DNA of 22,648 nucleotides from a virus. The notes under the pieces were generated by a model that was given only the letters and a program-made list of their open reading frames with translations, had not been told where the DNA came from and did no database searches. The position numbers and the translations under genes were made by a program. The stretch is taken from IMG/VR virus record IMGVR_UViG_3300025141_000835, positions 1 through 22,648 of that record; one strand, 5' to 3'. Below, piece by piece: positions 4,109 to 20,501 of the stretch (the stretch's first letter is position 1; every line of letters begins with the position of its first letter).

Positions 4109-4564
4109 TTAAAGTACTTTTATTGATTTTATAAGGTTTTCATTGATCTTTATAGAAATAAATTTTCGATTTCCAATGCTATCATTATAAAACTCTTTTT
4201 CTCCTTCTGAATTATGAGATGTTAGAACATCAAACTTGTGTTGAAAATTTTCCTCCAAATAATTAACCTGGCCTTTGGTCTCTCCCAAAGATATTATGTG
4301 AAATGAAAAATTGTCTTTTCCATATTTTTCAATATCACTAATTAGACTTTTAGAACTACCAATATATTGTTTCCAATCGGATTCCTTCTTTGTAACCCTT
4401 CTTCGGGTACTACCCTTTTTCTTTACTCTTCTAATAGAATAAAAATACTTTCTTCCAATATATTTTTTATCGTTTATTTTATTAAATATAATATAAACAA
4501 AACCATGCATATTTTCGGGAGGTTCATTTAAAACCTTTCTCTTATAAAACCAATGACTTTCCAT
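4109..4564 (-). CDS. GIY-YIG nuclease domain protein
   Basis: From ATG 4564 the product is 151 residues. A TTG at 4576 would add four residues, but it lies inside the preceding gene, and ATG 4564 sits one base after that gene's TAA, a typical coupled arrangement. The GIY-YIG core shows as FVYII (22-26) and KYIG (34-37). A basic segment follows (RRVKKKGSTRRRV, 45-57), then W64-K-Q-YIGSSK (67-72), and a helix with NYLEENFQ (101-108) that supplies the expected glutamate. The architecture resembles small phage GIY-YIG proteins of the Seg or endonuclease II type. There is no obvious separate DNA-binding domain beyond the basic patch. It sits exactly between virion and replication genes, where homing endonucleases often lodge, but whether it homes, degrades host DNA or repairs DNA cannot be told from sequence. 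Confidence 0.78.
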   Translation of the reverse strand: MESHWFYKRKVLNEPPENMHGFVYIIFNKINDKKYIGRKYFYSIRRVKKKGSTRRRVTKKESDWKQYIGSSKSLISDIEKYGKDNFSFHIISLGETKGQVNYLEENFQHKFDVLTSHNSEGEKEFYNDSIGNRKFISIKINENLIKSIKVL

Positions 4565-4565
4565 T

Positions 4566-5522
4566 TTATGTGTCAAATCTTAATACAAATTCCAAATCAT
4601 GATATTGAGAGTTTTGAATTGGTTGGCTGGGTTTGCCAACTATTAATAATTCTCCATCTTCATTATATAATCCTATTGTTGTGATGTATGGTGCAAAATC
4701 TGATGAAGAGACAAAACCGGCTAATATTCCCGAACCAGTTGGATAGTTTAATGAATTTACATCCAAACCACTGCCGCTCATGGCTGTTGGATTTGTTGGT
4801 ACCATAAAATCTCGTTCCGTAATAATACATCGATATTCATTCTCTATTATCCTATGAGTTCCTTGAAAGGTAAGTTGAAAATCATTAAAGACTGTTTTAA
4901 ATGCAGATCCAGTATTAGTAACTACCATTAATCCATCCGAATAAAAAACGTCTCCAACATTTACTCCAGAACTACTAACAAGATATCCCGATCCATCGTC
5001 GGTTATTGTTCCACCTATTCCAGTAGACGTTATAGAAATACTCTTGGGATTTATACCATCACCACAAATCTGTTCTGGTATAGATAAGACCGAAGCAGTA
5101 GCATCTAATTTGGTAACAGTGTCCGGGACATAAGACCCAACTGGTCCTCCCATATTTGAAAAATTATATCTATTGGGTCTATAATATAAAACATCTAAAG
5201 ATCGGTGAGTTAAAGCATTATCAACCCCATGGCTTGATCCATCTAATTCATATCCCAATTTTCTGCCTGGAGTATTAGGAGCGACGAGATAATTGACAGT
5301 AGCTGCCTGGCTGCCAGTGGAAACGGGTGCAATATTTTTACCTTGAAGGGGTAACCATGACCATGCAATAGCTGTATTGCCTGTACGCGAAGAACTTATG
5401 GCCGTATATTCTCTTATACCATAACTACCAGTAGTCTCATCTGTAACATTCCAAGTTTTATGAGCAATATAAGGAGTTATGCTTATGTCTTCTTTAAATA
5501 TTTCTTTAAAAATTAATGACAT
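4566..5522 (-). CDS. Putative virion (tail fibre/baseplate-associated) protein, paralogue of the 331-aa neighbour by its C-terminus
   Basis: A 318-residue protein rich in Gly, Ser, Thr and Asn, the composition of a beta-structured phage virion protein. The last 40 residues (from about 279, YITTIGLYNEDGELLIVGK onward) match the last 40 of the protein encoded just upstream, which reads YITTIGLYNANNELLAVAK at the same place. The N-terminal parts are not obviously similar. The shared block could be an assembly or trimerisation unit, with the variable N-terminus as the functional part, but I do not recognise a named family. The start ATG 5522 has no clear Shine-Dalgarno; the gap to the previous gene is 18 nt. 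The stop is one base from the nuclease ATG. Function is inferred only from composition and from neighbours that look structural. Confidence 0.7.
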   Translation of the reverse strand: MSLIFKEIFKEDISITPYIAHKTWNVTDETTGSYGIREYTAISSSRTGNTAIAWSWLPLQGKNIAPVSTGSQAATVNYLVAPNTPGRKLGYELDGSSHGVDNALTHRSLDVLYYRPNRYNFSNMGGPVGSYVPDTVTKLDATASVLSIPEQICGDGINPKSISITSTGIGGTITDDGSGYLVSSSGVNVGDVFYSDGLMVVTNTGSAFKTVFNDFQLTFQGTHRIIENEYRCIITERDFMVPTNPTAMSGSGLDVNSLNYPTGSGILAGFVSSSDFAPYITTIGLYNEDGELLIVGKPSQPIQNSQYHDLEFVLRFDT

Positions 5523-6589: not shown

Positions 6590-7258
6590 TTATGTGACTA
6601 GGACATTTACTGACATCTGGTTTACTGTAATATCAACTACTATATGTCCGCCGGTCTCATTCCCTGATATCATAACTTGTGTTACCCTATTTTGATTATA
6701 TTGGGCGACAGGCAAAATCGAGAATTCCATCCCCGTTGCAGTAATAACCCTATTCTCCATATTTGTTTGTATACCTTGGTTAAGCCACCAGCTTGTTCCC
6801 CCACCAGCATTTACACCTTGACCTTCTATCTGTAAAATAGCCCCACTAAGAATAGTAGCCGTATATCCCAATGTACCATTTCCTCCTGCGGGATTAAAAG
6901 TCTGCATCTTTAATATTAAAGGAATTGTTGTACCGGAATCTATTGTATAAGAAGTAATTCCACCAACCATTCCAATGGTTGGAAGTCTCTGTGAATTCTT
7001 TGGCAATGTTATTAAATTACGCTTCATTGTAGAGGTTTCATTTGGATTAGCTTCTATGAGAGACATATTTTCAATTGCTTCGCCATAATAGGCACTTCCA
7101 TTCGAATTATTTATATCCCACAGGCTATAATCTACTTCGTCATCCGCCAAGGCAAATTTAACTATTTGAAGTCCTTGTCCCATTTGAGAAAGTTTTTCTC
7201 TTCCCAATTTTGTTAAAACTGCATCAACAGTAAGTGTGCCAGAATCTAGATATGCCAT
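6590..7258 (-). CDS. Minimal member of a three-paralogue virion protein family (bare module)
   Basis: A 222-residue protein whose whole length matches the first 230 or so residues of the 316-aa and 451-aa proteins. Shared landmarks are a start M-x-Y-[IL]-D followed by T-[VI]-DA-[VI]-[LV]-T, then ADDEVDY-x-LWD near residue 39, YYGEAIENMSL (57-67), EANPN, a LPT (92-94), GYTAT in the middle, and a closing block GNETGGHIVVDITV. Here the protein ends about ten residues after that block, with no appendage. AAGGA lies six bases before ATG 7258, a good ribosome binding site. The family is probably a virion component carrying the attachment fold common to the set; the conserved N-terminus would be the docking part. 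No named domain is recognised. Confidence 0.75.
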   Translation of the reverse strand: MAYLDSGTLTVDAVLTKLGREKLSQMGQGLQIVKFALADDEVDYSLWDINNSNGSAYYGEAIENMSLIEANPNETSTMKRNLITLPKNSQRLPTIGMVGGITSYTIDSGTTIPLILKMQTFNPAGGNGTLGYTATILSGAILQIEGQGVNAGGGTSWWLNQGIQTNMENRVITATGMEFSILPVAQYNQNRVTQVMISGNETGGHIVVDITVNQMSVNVLVT

Positions 7259-7282
7259 AATTTTTCCTTAAAATCGTTTCTT

Positions 7283-7304
7283 CTAATATAAATATATTTT
7301 TATT
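7283..7304 (-). promoter_or_regulatory. AT-rich motif shared with the leader of the 451-aa paralogue (possible promoter)
   Basis: These 22 bases match those at 9986-10007 with two differences, and both copies lie just upstream of a paralogue start (24 nt here, 3 nt there). Read on the minus strand, the copy at 9986-10007 contains TATAAT and this one TATATT, as in a -10 box. A 12-base part, TAATATAAATAT on the plus strand, also recurs at 20511-20522 before the gp25-like gene. In a genome this AT-rich, chance or paralogy could explain it, so the promoter reading is weak. Confidence 0.25.
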
Positions 7305-7361
7305 TAAATTTATTCCAATTAAATCATATTTTTTCAATACCCTCAAATTAAATATCTGCTT

Positions 7362-7409
7362 CTAATAAGTCTTAGTAGTCAGTGGACTGGGACCAGGTGG
7401 ACTTGGACC
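7362..7409 (-). pseudogene. In-frame continuation of the Gly/Pro repeat beyond the TAA of the 316-aa gene
   Basis: Directly after the TAA (7410-7412) the same frame reads GPSPPGPSPLTTKTY and then TAG at 7362-7364. The first twenty bases after the stop are identical to the repeat unit inside the gene. Aligned with the two complete units, the TAA falls exactly on the one codon that varies between them (CCG in one, ACG in the other). The extension is therefore either a fibre tail cut short by mutation, or residues reached by stop-codon readthrough, or a sequencing error in a repetitive, G/C-rich tract. Confidence 0.6.
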
Positions 7410-8360
7410 TTATGGACCATAGGGTCCTCCTGGGCCGCTTGGACCAGGTGGACTTGGACCCGTTGGGCCTGGGCCTGGACCAGGTGGACTTGGACCCGGT
7501 GGGCCTGGGCCTGGACCTCCACCTCCTCCTCCTGGCTTGCCGATTGGACCTAATGGTTGACCTGGACCGCCTGGATTTCCCGATGGGCCTCCCCCCCATG
7601 GGCCACTTGGACCAGGTATATTCGAGATCTGCCCTCTAATTACTTTAACATCAATTATGAGATTGTGTCCTATTTCATTATCATGAATAAAAACCTGAGT
7701 ATTTTGTTCGGTAATCGAAGTGTCTTTAATAAACTTTGGTTCTAAGAAAAAAGTATTTGCACTAACAGTAGCAATTGGATTTCCATTTGAAGTTCCCATT
7801 ATAGACTGAATGGGGTTAGTAGACCATCCCAGATCTGGAAGTTTAATTCCTGTTAATATACCACCACTAAGAGATAAAACCCTAGCATCCCTTACAACAG
7901 CTGTATATCCCATGGGTGCAAATATTCCATTTCCTGGAATAACCCATCCTTGATCCGGTATGTTTGGATTTACTTGCATCGGATTAAGAATTATACCACC
8001 ATCGTTTGTACTTATTTGATAACTCAAACTATTGATAAAATATCCACCGGCCGGAACAACACCCGACCAAATTTTCATTGTAGGAAGTTTATTTGTATTT
8101 TGTGGTAACTTCTTATATAATTTAGAATGTAAGTGTCTGTTTGCAATGGGATTTGGTTCCAAGATTGGCATATTCTCTATTGCATTGCCAAAATATCCAG
8201 TGGTCCACTGCATCTCATCCCATAACCTATAATCAACTCCATCATCAGCTAAAGCCCATTTACTTATTGCAAAAGTTCCTTCTCCAGAAGACATTAAATC
8301 TCTACCCCGTCTGGTTAAAACTGCATCTACCGTTAATTCATTTTCGTCAATATATCCCAT
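7410..8360 (-). CDS. Paralogous virion protein with Gly/Pro-rich (collagen-like or polyglycine-like) C-terminal tail
   Basis: A 316-residue protein. Residues 1-240 are the shared module of the family: TVDAVLTRRGR (10-20), ADDGVDYRLWD (38-48), GNAIENM (58-64), LPT (92-94), GYTAVV (151-156), DNEIGHNLIIDVKV (227-240). From residue 249 the chain becomes almost purely Gly, Pro and Ser, with a run of six Gly (277-282) and two 12-residue units of the form GPGPxGPSPPGP. The spacing of Gly is not a strict Gly-X-Y collagen triplet. Such tails in phage fibres can form rigid extended structures, and the polyglycine-II sheets of some T-even adhesins are a possible comparison (inference). The ATG follows the membrane-protein stop by one base. 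The TAA interrupts a repeat that continues in frame. Confidence 0.78.
   Translation of the reverse strand: MGYIDENELTVDAVLTRRGRDLMSSGEGTFAISKWALADDGVDYRLWDEMQWTTGYFGNAIENMPILEPNPIANRHLHSKLYKKLPQNTNKLPTMKIWSGVVPAGGYFINSLSYQISTNDGGIILNPMQVNPNIPDQGWVIPGNGIFAPMGYTAVVRDARVLSLSGGILTGIKLPDLGWSTNPIQSIMGTSNGNPIATVSANTFFLEPKFIKDTSITEQNTQVFIHDNEIGHNLIIDVKVIRGQISNIPGPSGPWGGGPSGNPGGPGQPLGPIGKPGGGGGGPGPGPPGPSPPGPGPGPTGPSPPGPSGPGGPYGP
7441..7512 (-). repeat. Two tandem 36-bp units encoding the Gly/Pro repeat
   Basis: Positions 7441-7476 and 7477-7512 are identical except for one base (7463 T against 7499 G), which changes one codon between ACG (Thr) and CCG (Pro) on the minus strand. A partial third copy of twenty bases (7390-7409) lies beyond the stop codon. 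Near-perfect DNA identity, not just protein similarity, points to recent duplication and a likely site of length variation by slippage or recombination. Confidence 0.85.
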
Positions 8361-8361
8361 A

Positions 8362-8640
8362 TTATTTAATACCCTTTATTTTTTCTAATAAAGATAATGT
8401 AAATGTCTGTATTTCGGGTTTTCCTATCTTCTTACGAAATCCATTTTCAATCCTAGTTAAAGGACAATCCCTCCAATATCTAGCAAAAACATGATGTGCC
8501 ACCCAAGCATTTAGAGGAACCCATACCCAAAAGGGTTCGTATATGACTAAAAGTGGAATTGATGCAGCTAATAAAATAAGATATATAAAATGTATTACTT
8601 GGGTTAAAACTATTGCAATATTATAACTATTTTTTTTCAT
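8362..8640 (-). CDS. Small DUF2784-like membrane protein
   Basis: A 92-residue protein with two predicted membrane segments (about residues 9-33 and 36-53) and a cytoplasmic-looking basic C-terminus. The block WRDCPLTRIENGFRKKIG (56-73) matches the hallmark I recall for DUF2784 inner-membrane proteins, a CPLTxLEN motif followed by basic residues; the match is from memory. The protein is shorter than typical bacterial members (about 120 aa) and has Trp/His/Arg-rich sequence before the motif. An AGAGGA site lies about nine bases upstream of ATG 8640. The start overlaps the end of the Hint-domain gene by 14 nt, so translation is probably coupled. A membrane protein inside a virion-protein cluster is unexpected. 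A role in lysis, superinfection exclusion or processing of the Hint protein is possible, but none is shown. Confidence 0.72.
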   Translation of the reverse strand: MKKNSYNIAIVLTQVIHFIYLILLAASIPLLVIYEPFWVWVPLNAWVAHHVFARYWRDCPLTRIENGFRKKIGKPEIQTFTLSLLEKIKGIK

Positions 8641-9982
8641 TTCTTAATTCCTCTAAAGTTAATCTCTCCTCTATTTTAGCTTTGTCAGTCACTCCAGTTA
8701 ACCTTCCAAAAATATACATCCACTTATGCATACCTTGTAATAATTGTTTAGAATCTTTATTAACTGGTTTCATATTAAAATATTTATATCTTTCTTTTGG
8801 GAAAAGTAAAAATATGATTCTAGCAATCTTATTTAATGGATAAGTTAAGAAGTGAGGTACATCTGTATAAATCGAACAATCAATATCATTTACATTTATT
8901 CTTCCATTTATTGTCATAGGAGAATATATTCCTTTGGATCTTTTGTTAGATACTTCAGATACTTTTACATATTTTCCTTTATATTTTATTTTATCACCAA
9001 CTTTGACATCTTTTGCAAATACCGGCTTATTATTTACATAAATATAATGCAATGTCGATAGCTTTATCTGATCTTCTGCATGCTTTATTACCATAAAATC
9101 CATTTCTGAATTGTGAGTATAAGTTTGATATCCCCAAATTTTAGACCAGCCTCTTTCCGTTTGAACTTTTTCGCCTATTTTTAAATCTTCAATATTAACA
9201 ATACCACGGTTTTTAGTTACAACTTTAGCTCCAGCAGCAAAGCATCCGCCGCCGCCACCTCCGGAGGGAATGGGGCTTGAACCTGGGTTCCACACGGTGA
9301 AATTAACTATAAATTTTCCTGCCGTATCATTTGCAATAATGGTTACAGATGCAGTTTCAGTCTCTCCAGGTTTAACATACTGAGCTAGATTAATTTCAAA
9401 AAACTGGCCGGTTGCCCTGACTGTATATTTTCCAGTACTTGGATCTATAACAAATCCACCGTTATTGGAAGCCCAAGTAGTGCCTCCAGTAGCAGGAGAG
9501 AATTTATTTCCATAACCTTCTATTCTTAAAATATTCCTATCAGAAACTATTGCCGTATATCCAGATGTAATATTAGCATCCGATGGATTATATGTCACTG
9601 GCCGGAGGGCCTCTGCATTAGCATATGGGTATGTTGGATTCCCAAAATGGGGGATTTTGCAAAGCATAAATTGAGAATACTTTCCCCCTGATAATGCTAT
9701 CGTCGGAACCACTTCTATATTTTTAGGTAAAGAAAGCATTTTAAAATTCATAGTTGTATCTTGGTTTGGATTGGCCTCTGTAAGTGACATGTTTTCAATT
9801 GCTTGGCCATAATATACTGAACCATTTGTATTATCAGTGTCCCATAATCTATAATCTACTTCGTCATCAGCCACAGCAAATTTAGAAACTTTAAATTTAG
9901 CACGACCTTTAGAAAGTAGTTCTCTACCCCTTGCAGTTACTATTGCATCTATTGTTACTAAAGTATTATCTATATATCCCAT
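8627..9982 (-). CDS. Paralogous virion protein fused to a Hedgehog-type Hint autoprocessing domain
   Basis: A 451-residue protein in three parts. Residues 1-230 are the module shared with the 316-aa and 222-aa proteins (ADDEVDYRLWD 38-48, YYGQAIENMSL 57-67, GYTAIV 141-146, and a final block NDTAGKFIVNFTV 218-230). A linker ends in six glycines (241-246). Residues 247-391 read as a Hint domain: CF at 247-248, VNIEDLKIGEKV (262-273), MVIKHAEDQ (297-305), LSTLHYIYV (308-316, giving Ser309 and His312 for the TxxH motif), AKDVKVGDK (323-331), then the Hedgehog-like GIYSPMTINGRINVN (351-365), Cys369 and a final hydrophobic helix. The Gly-Cys-Phe junction is where Hedgehog proteins undergo N-to-S acyl shift. 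There is no C-terminal intein His-Asn and no downstream extein, only a 60-residue basic tail. ATG 9982 has no clear Shine-Dalgarno. Confidence 0.82.
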   Translation of the reverse strand: MGYIDNTLVTIDAIVTARGRELLSKGRAKFKVSKFAVADDEVDYRLWDTDNTNGSVYYGQAIENMSLTEANPNQDTTMNFKMLSLPKNIEVVPTIALSGGKYSQFMLCKIPHFGNPTYPYANAEALRPVTYNPSDANITSGYTAIVSDRNILRIEGYGNKFSPATGGTTWASNNGGFVIDPSTGKYTVRATGQFFEINLAQYVKPGETETASVTIIANDTAGKFIVNFTVWNPGSSPIPSGGGGGGCFAAGAKVVTKNRGIVNIEDLKIGEKVQTERGWSKIWGYQTYTHNSEMDFMVIKHAEDQIKLSTLHYIYVNNKPVFAKDVKVGDKIKYKGKYVKVSEVSNKRSKGIYSPMTINGRINVNDIDCSIYTDVPHFLTYPLNKIARIIFLLFPKERYKYFNMKPVNKDSKQLLQGMHKWMYIFGRLTGVTDKAKIEERLTLEELRNEKK

Positions 9983-20063: not shown

Positions 20064-20501
20064 CTATCCCACTATCTCAGACGATATACCTGTAGACAGA
20101 TCAAATTCTAAAGTAATGGATGAACCAAAATTTGATGGTGAAACACTATAATCAATCTTGACTCTAACAGTATTATCCTGTCCAGACACTTGTATGGATT
20201 TTAAATTTATATATGGAGTCCACTTTGAAACAGAACTCTTAATTTCTTCTCTTATATTATCTCTCAAAAATTCAGTATTCGGTTCAAACAAGACCTTATA
20301 TAAATTAGTACCAAAATCTGGTTGAAAAACTCTTTCTCCCTTTATTGTTAATAGAAGATTCTTTAAATTTGTTCTAGCTTGATCCGTTGTTGTATATGTC
20401 GATTTAAATTTCCCCCTCATTATATTAATGGGCAAAGCCAAACCGACCGCAACGTCTGGTTCAGAATCTATGGGTTCATATTTAAATACTTCTCTAGCCA
20501 T
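20064..20501 (-). CDS. Baseplate wedge protein, gp25-like
   Basis: A 145-residue protein, close to T4 gp25 (132 aa). Family features are a central LLLTIKGERVFQPDFGTNLY (49-68), then FEPNTE (72-77) in the place where gp25 proteins carry their conserved EPR-type motif, followed by an amphipathic helix (LRDNIREEIKSSVSKW) and the strand VRVKIDYSV. gp25 joins the wedge core to the tube and sheath initiation site. The pairing with the gp6-like gene immediately downstream strengthens the call. The start ATG 20501 has no clear Shine-Dalgarno; an AT-rich palindrome-like element (20511-20524) lies ten bases upstream. Confidence 0.9.
   Translation of the reverse strand: MAREVFKYEPIDSEPDVAVGLALPINIMRGKFKSTYTTTDQARTNLKNLLLTIKGERVFQPDFGTNLYKVLFEPNTEFLRDNIREEIKSSVSKWTPYINLKSIQVSGQDNTVRVKIDYSVSPSNFGSSITLEFDLSTGISSEIVG

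Follow-up and report, generated by a model that had tools for sequence, protein, structure and literature searches.

A Hedgehog-type (Hog-type) Hint domain, recognised from sequence, forms the C-terminal part of a tail-region protein in a marine T4-like phage. In animals, domains of this type cut Hedgehog signals and couple cholesterol to them. The Hint type itself is known, and what appears to be new is its Hog-type form on a phage tail-region protein. The DNA that we analysed, here called the window, is IMGVR_UViG_3300025141_000835, positions 1 to 22,648. We consider it likely, with a probability of roughly 0.7, that a Hog-type Hint, together with a small membrane-protein open reading frame (ORF), was joined to the C-terminus of one protein in a tandem group of three from the tail region. 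The protein is encoded by a 451-aa ORF on the minus strand (8627-9982), and the plus strand of this interval is closed by many stops. The gene and its surroundings are laid out as follows.

8627..9982, minus strand: whole gene, encoding an N-terminal tail-region module, a poly-Gly linker, a Hog-type Hint and a helical tail (ORF, Pfam)
9293..9982, minus strand: N-terminal module, aa 1-230, with a conserved head of ~90 aa and a predicted beta-sandwich
9245..9292, minus strand: linker, aa 231-246, with six glycines at its end and a predicted scissile bond between Gly246 and Cys247 (sequence)
8867..9244, minus strand: Hint core, aa 247-372, from the nucleophile Cys247 to Tyr372 (PF01079, AlphaFold2, Foldseek)
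9122..9124, minus strand: Thr287, at the position of the Hedgehog general base Asp303/D46, not conserved (hhalign register)
9047..9058, minus strand: Ser309-Thr-Leu-His312, equivalent of the block-B TxxH motif with Ser for Thr
8867..8926, minus strand: motif J, aa 353-372, YSPMTINGRINVNDIDCSIY, the Hog hallmark, containing Cys369 and Ile371
8630..8866, minus strand: C-terminal tail, aa 373-451, helical by low-confidence prediction and a candidate region for adduct recognition
8837-8854, minus strand: H377-x4-P382 in the C-terminal tail
8720-8734, minus strand: GMHKW, aa 417-421, in the C-terminal tail
8362..8640, minus strand: small membrane-protein ORF, 92 aa, DUF2784-like, overlapping the end of the Hint gene by 14 bp
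7410..8360, minus strand: second member of the tandem family of N-terminal modules, ending in a collagen-like Gly-Pro tail in place of the Hint
6590..7258, minus strand: third member of this tandem family, without extension

Several lines of evidence identify the domain. A preliminary description of the sequence had proposed a Hedgehog-type Hint at the end of this tail-region protein and a profile search against Hint families; PF01079, the Pfam Hint profile, covers aa 245-376 at a score of 61.1 bits against a cut-off of 29.7 (E=1.4e-16), which together with the modelled fold bears the proposal out. The Vint (PF14623), Hint_2 and PT-HINT profiles all stay under their own Pfam cut-offs on the 451-aa protein. 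In local alignment to Drosophila Hedgehog, whose C-terminal sequence we compared residue by residue with PDB 6td6, the protein scores 81 against 29.7 +/- 4.7 for shuffled sequences, and none of 2000 shuffles scored as high. AlphaFold2, given aa 234-451 together with 19 further viral Hints, predicts an all-beta Hint core at ~90 pLDDT followed by helices at low confidence. A Foldseek search of this model against the PDB gave 42 matches with E<=1e-3, to Hint domains and inteins, the best of which include the gp41-1 intein (1.7e-7) and the BIL (bacterial intein-like) domain 2lwy (3.7e-7), with Hedgehog 1at0 (E=4.9e-7, target TM 0.73) and Hedgehog D46H (6.1e-7) close by. The predicted fold is thus that of a Hint, and the fold unlike Hint that the preliminary description had named as speaking against it did not appear; Foldseek by itself gives no decision between Hedgehog and inteins or BIL domains. 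With a Hint fold and a Hint profile score over its cut-off, the domain falls within the Hint superfamily.

Within this superfamily the sequence places the domain with the Hog type, as in Hedgehog, and not with the intein type, because it carries motif J, lacks a His-Asn end and a C-extein, and continues into a 79-aa predicted-helical tail. Motif J is a distinctive Hog block, and several Hogs of lower eukaryotes have another residue in place of its cysteine (PMC2362128). Here the final strand pair, RSKGIYSPMTINGRINVNDIDCSIY, aligns to Hedgehog as motif J (Hh RSKG..PLT..G.I.VN....S.Y) and stands where an intein would have its His-Asn block. The catalytic Cys1 after Gly and the block-B TxxH motif of Hog domains are present as Gly246-Cys247 and Ser309-Thr-Leu-His312, the Ser being conservative. 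Gly241-246, Cys247, Phe248, His312 and Cys369 are all found at the positions given for them in the preliminary description; of the Hedgehog-like order that it read from them, Gly-Cys-Phe, His312 and motif J hold, whereas Cys369 is not the equivalent of Hedgehog Cys400, a position taken in the alignment by Ile371, with Cys369 two residues earlier. An ordinary intein or a BIL domain would account for the gp41-1 intein and 2lwy among the top Foldseek matches. BIL and C-terminal intein-like phage Hints share the poly-Gly junction and blocks A and B with this protein. Those domains, however, end in His-Asn, and several others carry C-exteins, whereas the ORF ends without either, Pfam Intein_splicing finds no match on the 451-aa protein, and PF01079 lies far above its cut-off. 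This identity is accordingly very improbable, and intein splicing, which had already been judged unlikely from the same missing ends, is contradicted by the ORF sequence.

The tail that follows motif J bears on what the domain might recognise. After its Hint, a Hog domain would be expected to have a sterol- or adduct-recognition region (SRR/ARR) with motifs K and L. The sterol region of Hedgehog (SRR) folds as a helix-loop-helix and carries an HWY hinge as well as a conserved H-x4-P-x-R (HPR) motif (PMC7906309). The phage tail carries H377-x4-P382-L-N384, with Asn384 in place of the HPR-motif Arg, and GMHKW at 417-421; tail shuffling yields both H-x4-P and HxW in Hedgehog order at a frequency of 4e-4, a figure that holds for loose patterns loosened after the sequence had been seen. 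Aligned alone to the Drosophila SRR, the whole tail scores 22 against 21.9 +/- 4.1, which is not significant, so that SRR homology across the whole tail was rejected and kept as a motif-level hint. The sequence suggests a recognition region with possible remnants of sterol-region motifs, and we put it no more strongly because the patterns were loosened post hoc and the whole-tail alignment is not significant.

The first 230 aa of the protein form a tandem family with the products of two genes downstream, to which they are homologous at 46% and 34% identity. Relatives in IMG/VR encode the module by itself as a complete stand-alone protein, mostly of 213-264 aa; cultured relatives occur in Flavobacterium phage immuto and Microcystis phage Mel-JY01. 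A structure search with the module returned generic Ig-like beta-sandwiches at low TM. The GPW_gp25 baseplate protein is encoded at 20064-20501, the operon also encodes a gp6-like protein, and the order of the tail-operon genes is the same in immuto and partly the same in Mel-JY01; at gene level the module thus counts as part of the T4-like baseplate and tail, since its gene lies in a gp25-gp6 tail operon and its homologues are conserved. A SegE-type GIY-YIG endonuclease gene lies at 4109-4576 on the minus strand (121.8 bits, GC 0.267) and occupies the same place in two related contigs, L005 and L006.

These two contigs also show the locus without the addition. Their neighbouring large tail gene is 84% (L005) and 69% (L006) identical to that of the window, and the two downstream tail genes are 77-78% and 63-72% identical. 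At the syntenic locus both have three adjacent module genes and lack the Hint as well as the DUF2784-like ORF, and their module proteins, of 260 and 240 aa respectively, have Gly/Pro-rich ends and are close in length to the 246 aa expected from cleavage at Gly246. The module has a GC content of 0.373, and the values for the Hint and the membrane ORF are lower, at 0.281 and 0.294 respectively. The Hint and the 92-aa ORF look like one lineage-specific insert of ~0.9 kb, because L005 and L006 lack both, the GC content falls and the two reading frames overlap by 14 bp. The 92-aa product has a strongly hydrophobic N-terminal half and reaches 28.6 bits against the DUF2784 profile, slightly under its cut-off of 29.7; we found no phage, viral or sampled Bacteroidota relative of it except in the sister contig. 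As separate observations, the collagen-like tail of the second paralogue (7410-8360, minus strand) is Gly-Pro-rich and about 60 aa long, and the three module paralogues (6590-9982) are 47-64% identical to L005 where neighbouring genes are 77-84% identical. They have therefore diverged faster and are possibly exposed or host-related.

The residues of the active site allow a prediction about chemistry. Cys247 is the equivalent of Hedgehog Cys258. The Thr of TxxH is Ser, that of CFxAGT is Ala (AGA), and the general base Asp303, expected of a cholesterol transferase, aligns with Thr287, with His290 nearby. In Hedgehog, H329A is inactive in thiol- and cholesterol-mediated cleavage and T326A is greatly reduced in both, whereas D303A still forms a thiol-cleavable thioester and cleaves with DTT and cannot cholesteroylate fully (PMC9163320). 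Since D303A keeps its thiol-cleavable thioester, Thr287 is compatible with cleavage. From the set of Cys247, Ser309/His312 and Thr287 we would thus expect a thioester to form and the protein to be cleaved; the same set speaks against a transfer of the cholesterol type, which is not supported by the sequence. We infer every chemical step in what follows, as well as the role of the membrane protein. The Hint would fold after translation, and Ser309 and His312 would assist the attack of Cys247 on the carbonyl of Gly246 in an N-S acyl shift. Water or a small nucleophile would then resolve the thioester, releasing a ~246-aa tail-region module with a Gly-rich tail and freeing the Hint, and the product would come close to the module protein that sister phages encode without a Hint. 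The helical tail (aa 373-451) may serve in membrane binding or hold a dedicated nucleophile in place, and the membrane ORF may, more speculatively, act as a partner of the Hint. Cleavage between Gly246 and Cys247, with N-S acyl shift and release of the module, is the probable outcome on these residues. Resolution of the thioester by hydrolysis or thiolysis has close to an even chance and is at least as likely as release through an adduct; a specific adduct is possible and distinctly less favoured than an even chance, and the absence of any processing is rather unlikely.

The adduct deserves closer consideration. Much as Hedgehog is joined to cholesterol, the tail module might be transferred by the Hint to one particular acceptor, such as a lipid, a hopanoid-like alcohol, a sugar or a protein amine, and both helical tail and membrane ORF would then aid presentation of the acceptor. 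The predicted helices after the Hint, the two short motifs in Hedgehog order and the co-insertion of a membrane-protein ORF would all suit such a transfer, which we regard as a tentative alternative. Against it stand Thr287 in place of Asp303, the lack of significant similarity between tail and Drosophila SRR, and Asn384 in place of the HPR-motif Arg; moreover, bacteria are mostly without sterols. The specific lipid or sugar adduct raised in the preliminary description is not supported, on the same grounds, the general base being replaced and the tail resembling a sterol-recognition region at two short motifs only. A further-reaching version holds that the phage acquired a bona fide Hog and a membrane protein that ligate the tail protein to a membrane lipid or another non-sterol acceptor, and that non-splicing marine Hints generally mature or tag virion proteins; we think this a long shot, and if it were true, non-splicing Hint ends would be a general, unrecognised way of maturing or tagging virion proteins.

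It is also conceivable, and on balance unlikely, that the Hint is not a processing domain at all and is kept intact on the tail as a structural or binding domain. C-terminal domains are tolerated by virion proteins, and catalytic constraint is not visible in any independent close homologue. However, Cys1, the block-B Ser and His and the Gly-rich junction are all kept in this protein, and Cys1 and the block-B His are also present in most of the related viral poly-Gly Hints among the matches listed. Hint is likewise a known toxin-releasing domain, and processing as in polymorphic toxins would set free an effector made of the ~80 C-terminal residues. The PT-HINT match that would point this way is weak (15 bits, below the cut-off of 27.7), Pfam finds no toxin family in the tail, the terminal Asn for C-terminal cleavage is absent and the tail resembles a recognition region, so that this outcome is hardly to be expected. 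Compared with all of these, cleavage of the tail module by an added Hog-type Hint remains the reading that we prefer.

Among known systems, the Hog domain of Hedgehog (Drosophila Hh 1at0/6td6) is closest to the phage domain in its Gly-Cys-Phe junction, Hint fold, block-B His and motif J, and also in its C-terminal position, predicted-helical tail and the possible H-x4-P and HxW remnants. It differs in that the phage Hint sits on a tail-region protein with no signal peptide seen, in the replacements Asp303->Thr287, Thr326->Ser309 and Cys400->Ile371, and in an SRR similarity that is not significant overall. Nor is this a Hedgehog proper, as the Hedge signalling domain and secretion signal are absent and the N-terminus is the phage module. 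Hog proteins of lower eukaryotes share with it a replaced motif-J cysteine, unrelated N-terminal domains and a possible partial K motif, but were reported from eukaryotes (PMC2362128), whereas this Hog-type domain is in a phage. Vint (PF14623; PDB 8r2c) has the Hint fold and blocks A and B in common with the window protein, which however scores 18 bits against the Vint cut-off of 27, and Vint is without motif J (PMC2362128).

The domain is rare in the samples that we covered; these figures rest on pattern scans and on samples of viral and bacterial sequences, which do not amount to exhaustive searches. PF01079 was found in none of 28 other related phage contigs, and in 938 sampled bacterial genomes of three phyla (395, 294 and 249) its best scores were 35.5, 28.1 and 38.4 bits. 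A pattern scan of viral contigs for the Hog motif-J signature gave one match, the near-identical sister of the window. A relaxed signature gave seven further matches, rejected as one unrelated family of spurious frames, and four matches in genome contigs were all due to chance. The only Hint-bearing homologue is thus on a near-identical contig (99.8% DNA identity over 7.9 kb), which represents a single phage lineage, and the next relatives lack the whole Hint domain; L004 and the window differ at too few positions for a selection test on the Hint. In the open-access literature on Hint or Hog domains and phages that we searched, we found no description of a Hog-type domain on a phage tail protein; the matches were intein reviews and a jumbo-phage paper that mentions an intein-type Hint in terminase.

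Poly-Gly Hints without a splice end, on the other hand, are common on tail proteins of metagenomic marine phages. Scanning for Gly-Gly-Gly-Cys-Phe-x-Ala-Gly-Thr found at least 80 loci, nearly all of the 80 read being Hints, and a poly-Gly run before Cys is common to many viral Hints. Among the 80 matches listed, at least 22 continue into a C-extein, at least 25 stop soon after His-Asn and at least 26, which we call class B, stop without His-Asn, counts that are not frequencies, as the pattern is biased. Class B Hints (loci include L090, L099, L101, L105, L113, L131 and L153) sit on Gly-rich tail-fibre-like or large structural-like proteins from marine phage metagenomes, and among the matches listed they keep Cys1, with the block-B His kept in 25/26. 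They resemble the window Hint in the Gly-rich linker with Cys-Phe-x-Ala-Gly, the C-terminal position, the lack of a splice end and a terminal strand in the equivalent place, their last strand RRIIINGIEFTDYFE falling on motif J in a three-way alignment. Unlike the window Hint, their tail is short and mostly ends in Phe-Thr-Asp-Tyr-Phe, and none of the members tested passes PF01079; profile comparison between the two is weak (hhalign, 28% probability). Queries with the Hint and with class B found no match in 50,697 phage records, in which a control query of the His-Asn type matched 42. The N-terminal half of the window Hint fits the profile of other phage Hints with 54.7 bits, and the Hog-like half may therefore have arisen inside the phage Hint pool.

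Hog domains have been described as a eukaryotic family of open origin (PMC2362128). A Hog-type domain in a phage points to a source or a recipient in the prokaryotic world and makes the question of Hog origin testable. Self-cleavage or self-ligation may, in addition, be a common, unstudied maturation step of marine phage tail proteins, because many metagenomic tail proteins end in non-splicing Hints for which the searched records of cultured phages gave no match. As a ligation enzyme, a Hint whose Asp303 is naturally replaced would also be worth studying.

Some further Hints came to light in these scans. The pattern GGGCFxAGA gave 16 further loci, of which 5/16 are Hints, all intein-like, and was set aside. 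The 1546-aa ORF of L153 holds two Hints, an internal one that ends in His-Asn and a C-terminal one with its block-B His replaced by Gln. In L098, L110, L125, L135, L141 and others, C-extein Hints lie near the start of long tail-tip-like (lambda J-like) proteins, and Hints of this type have poly-Gly on both flanks.
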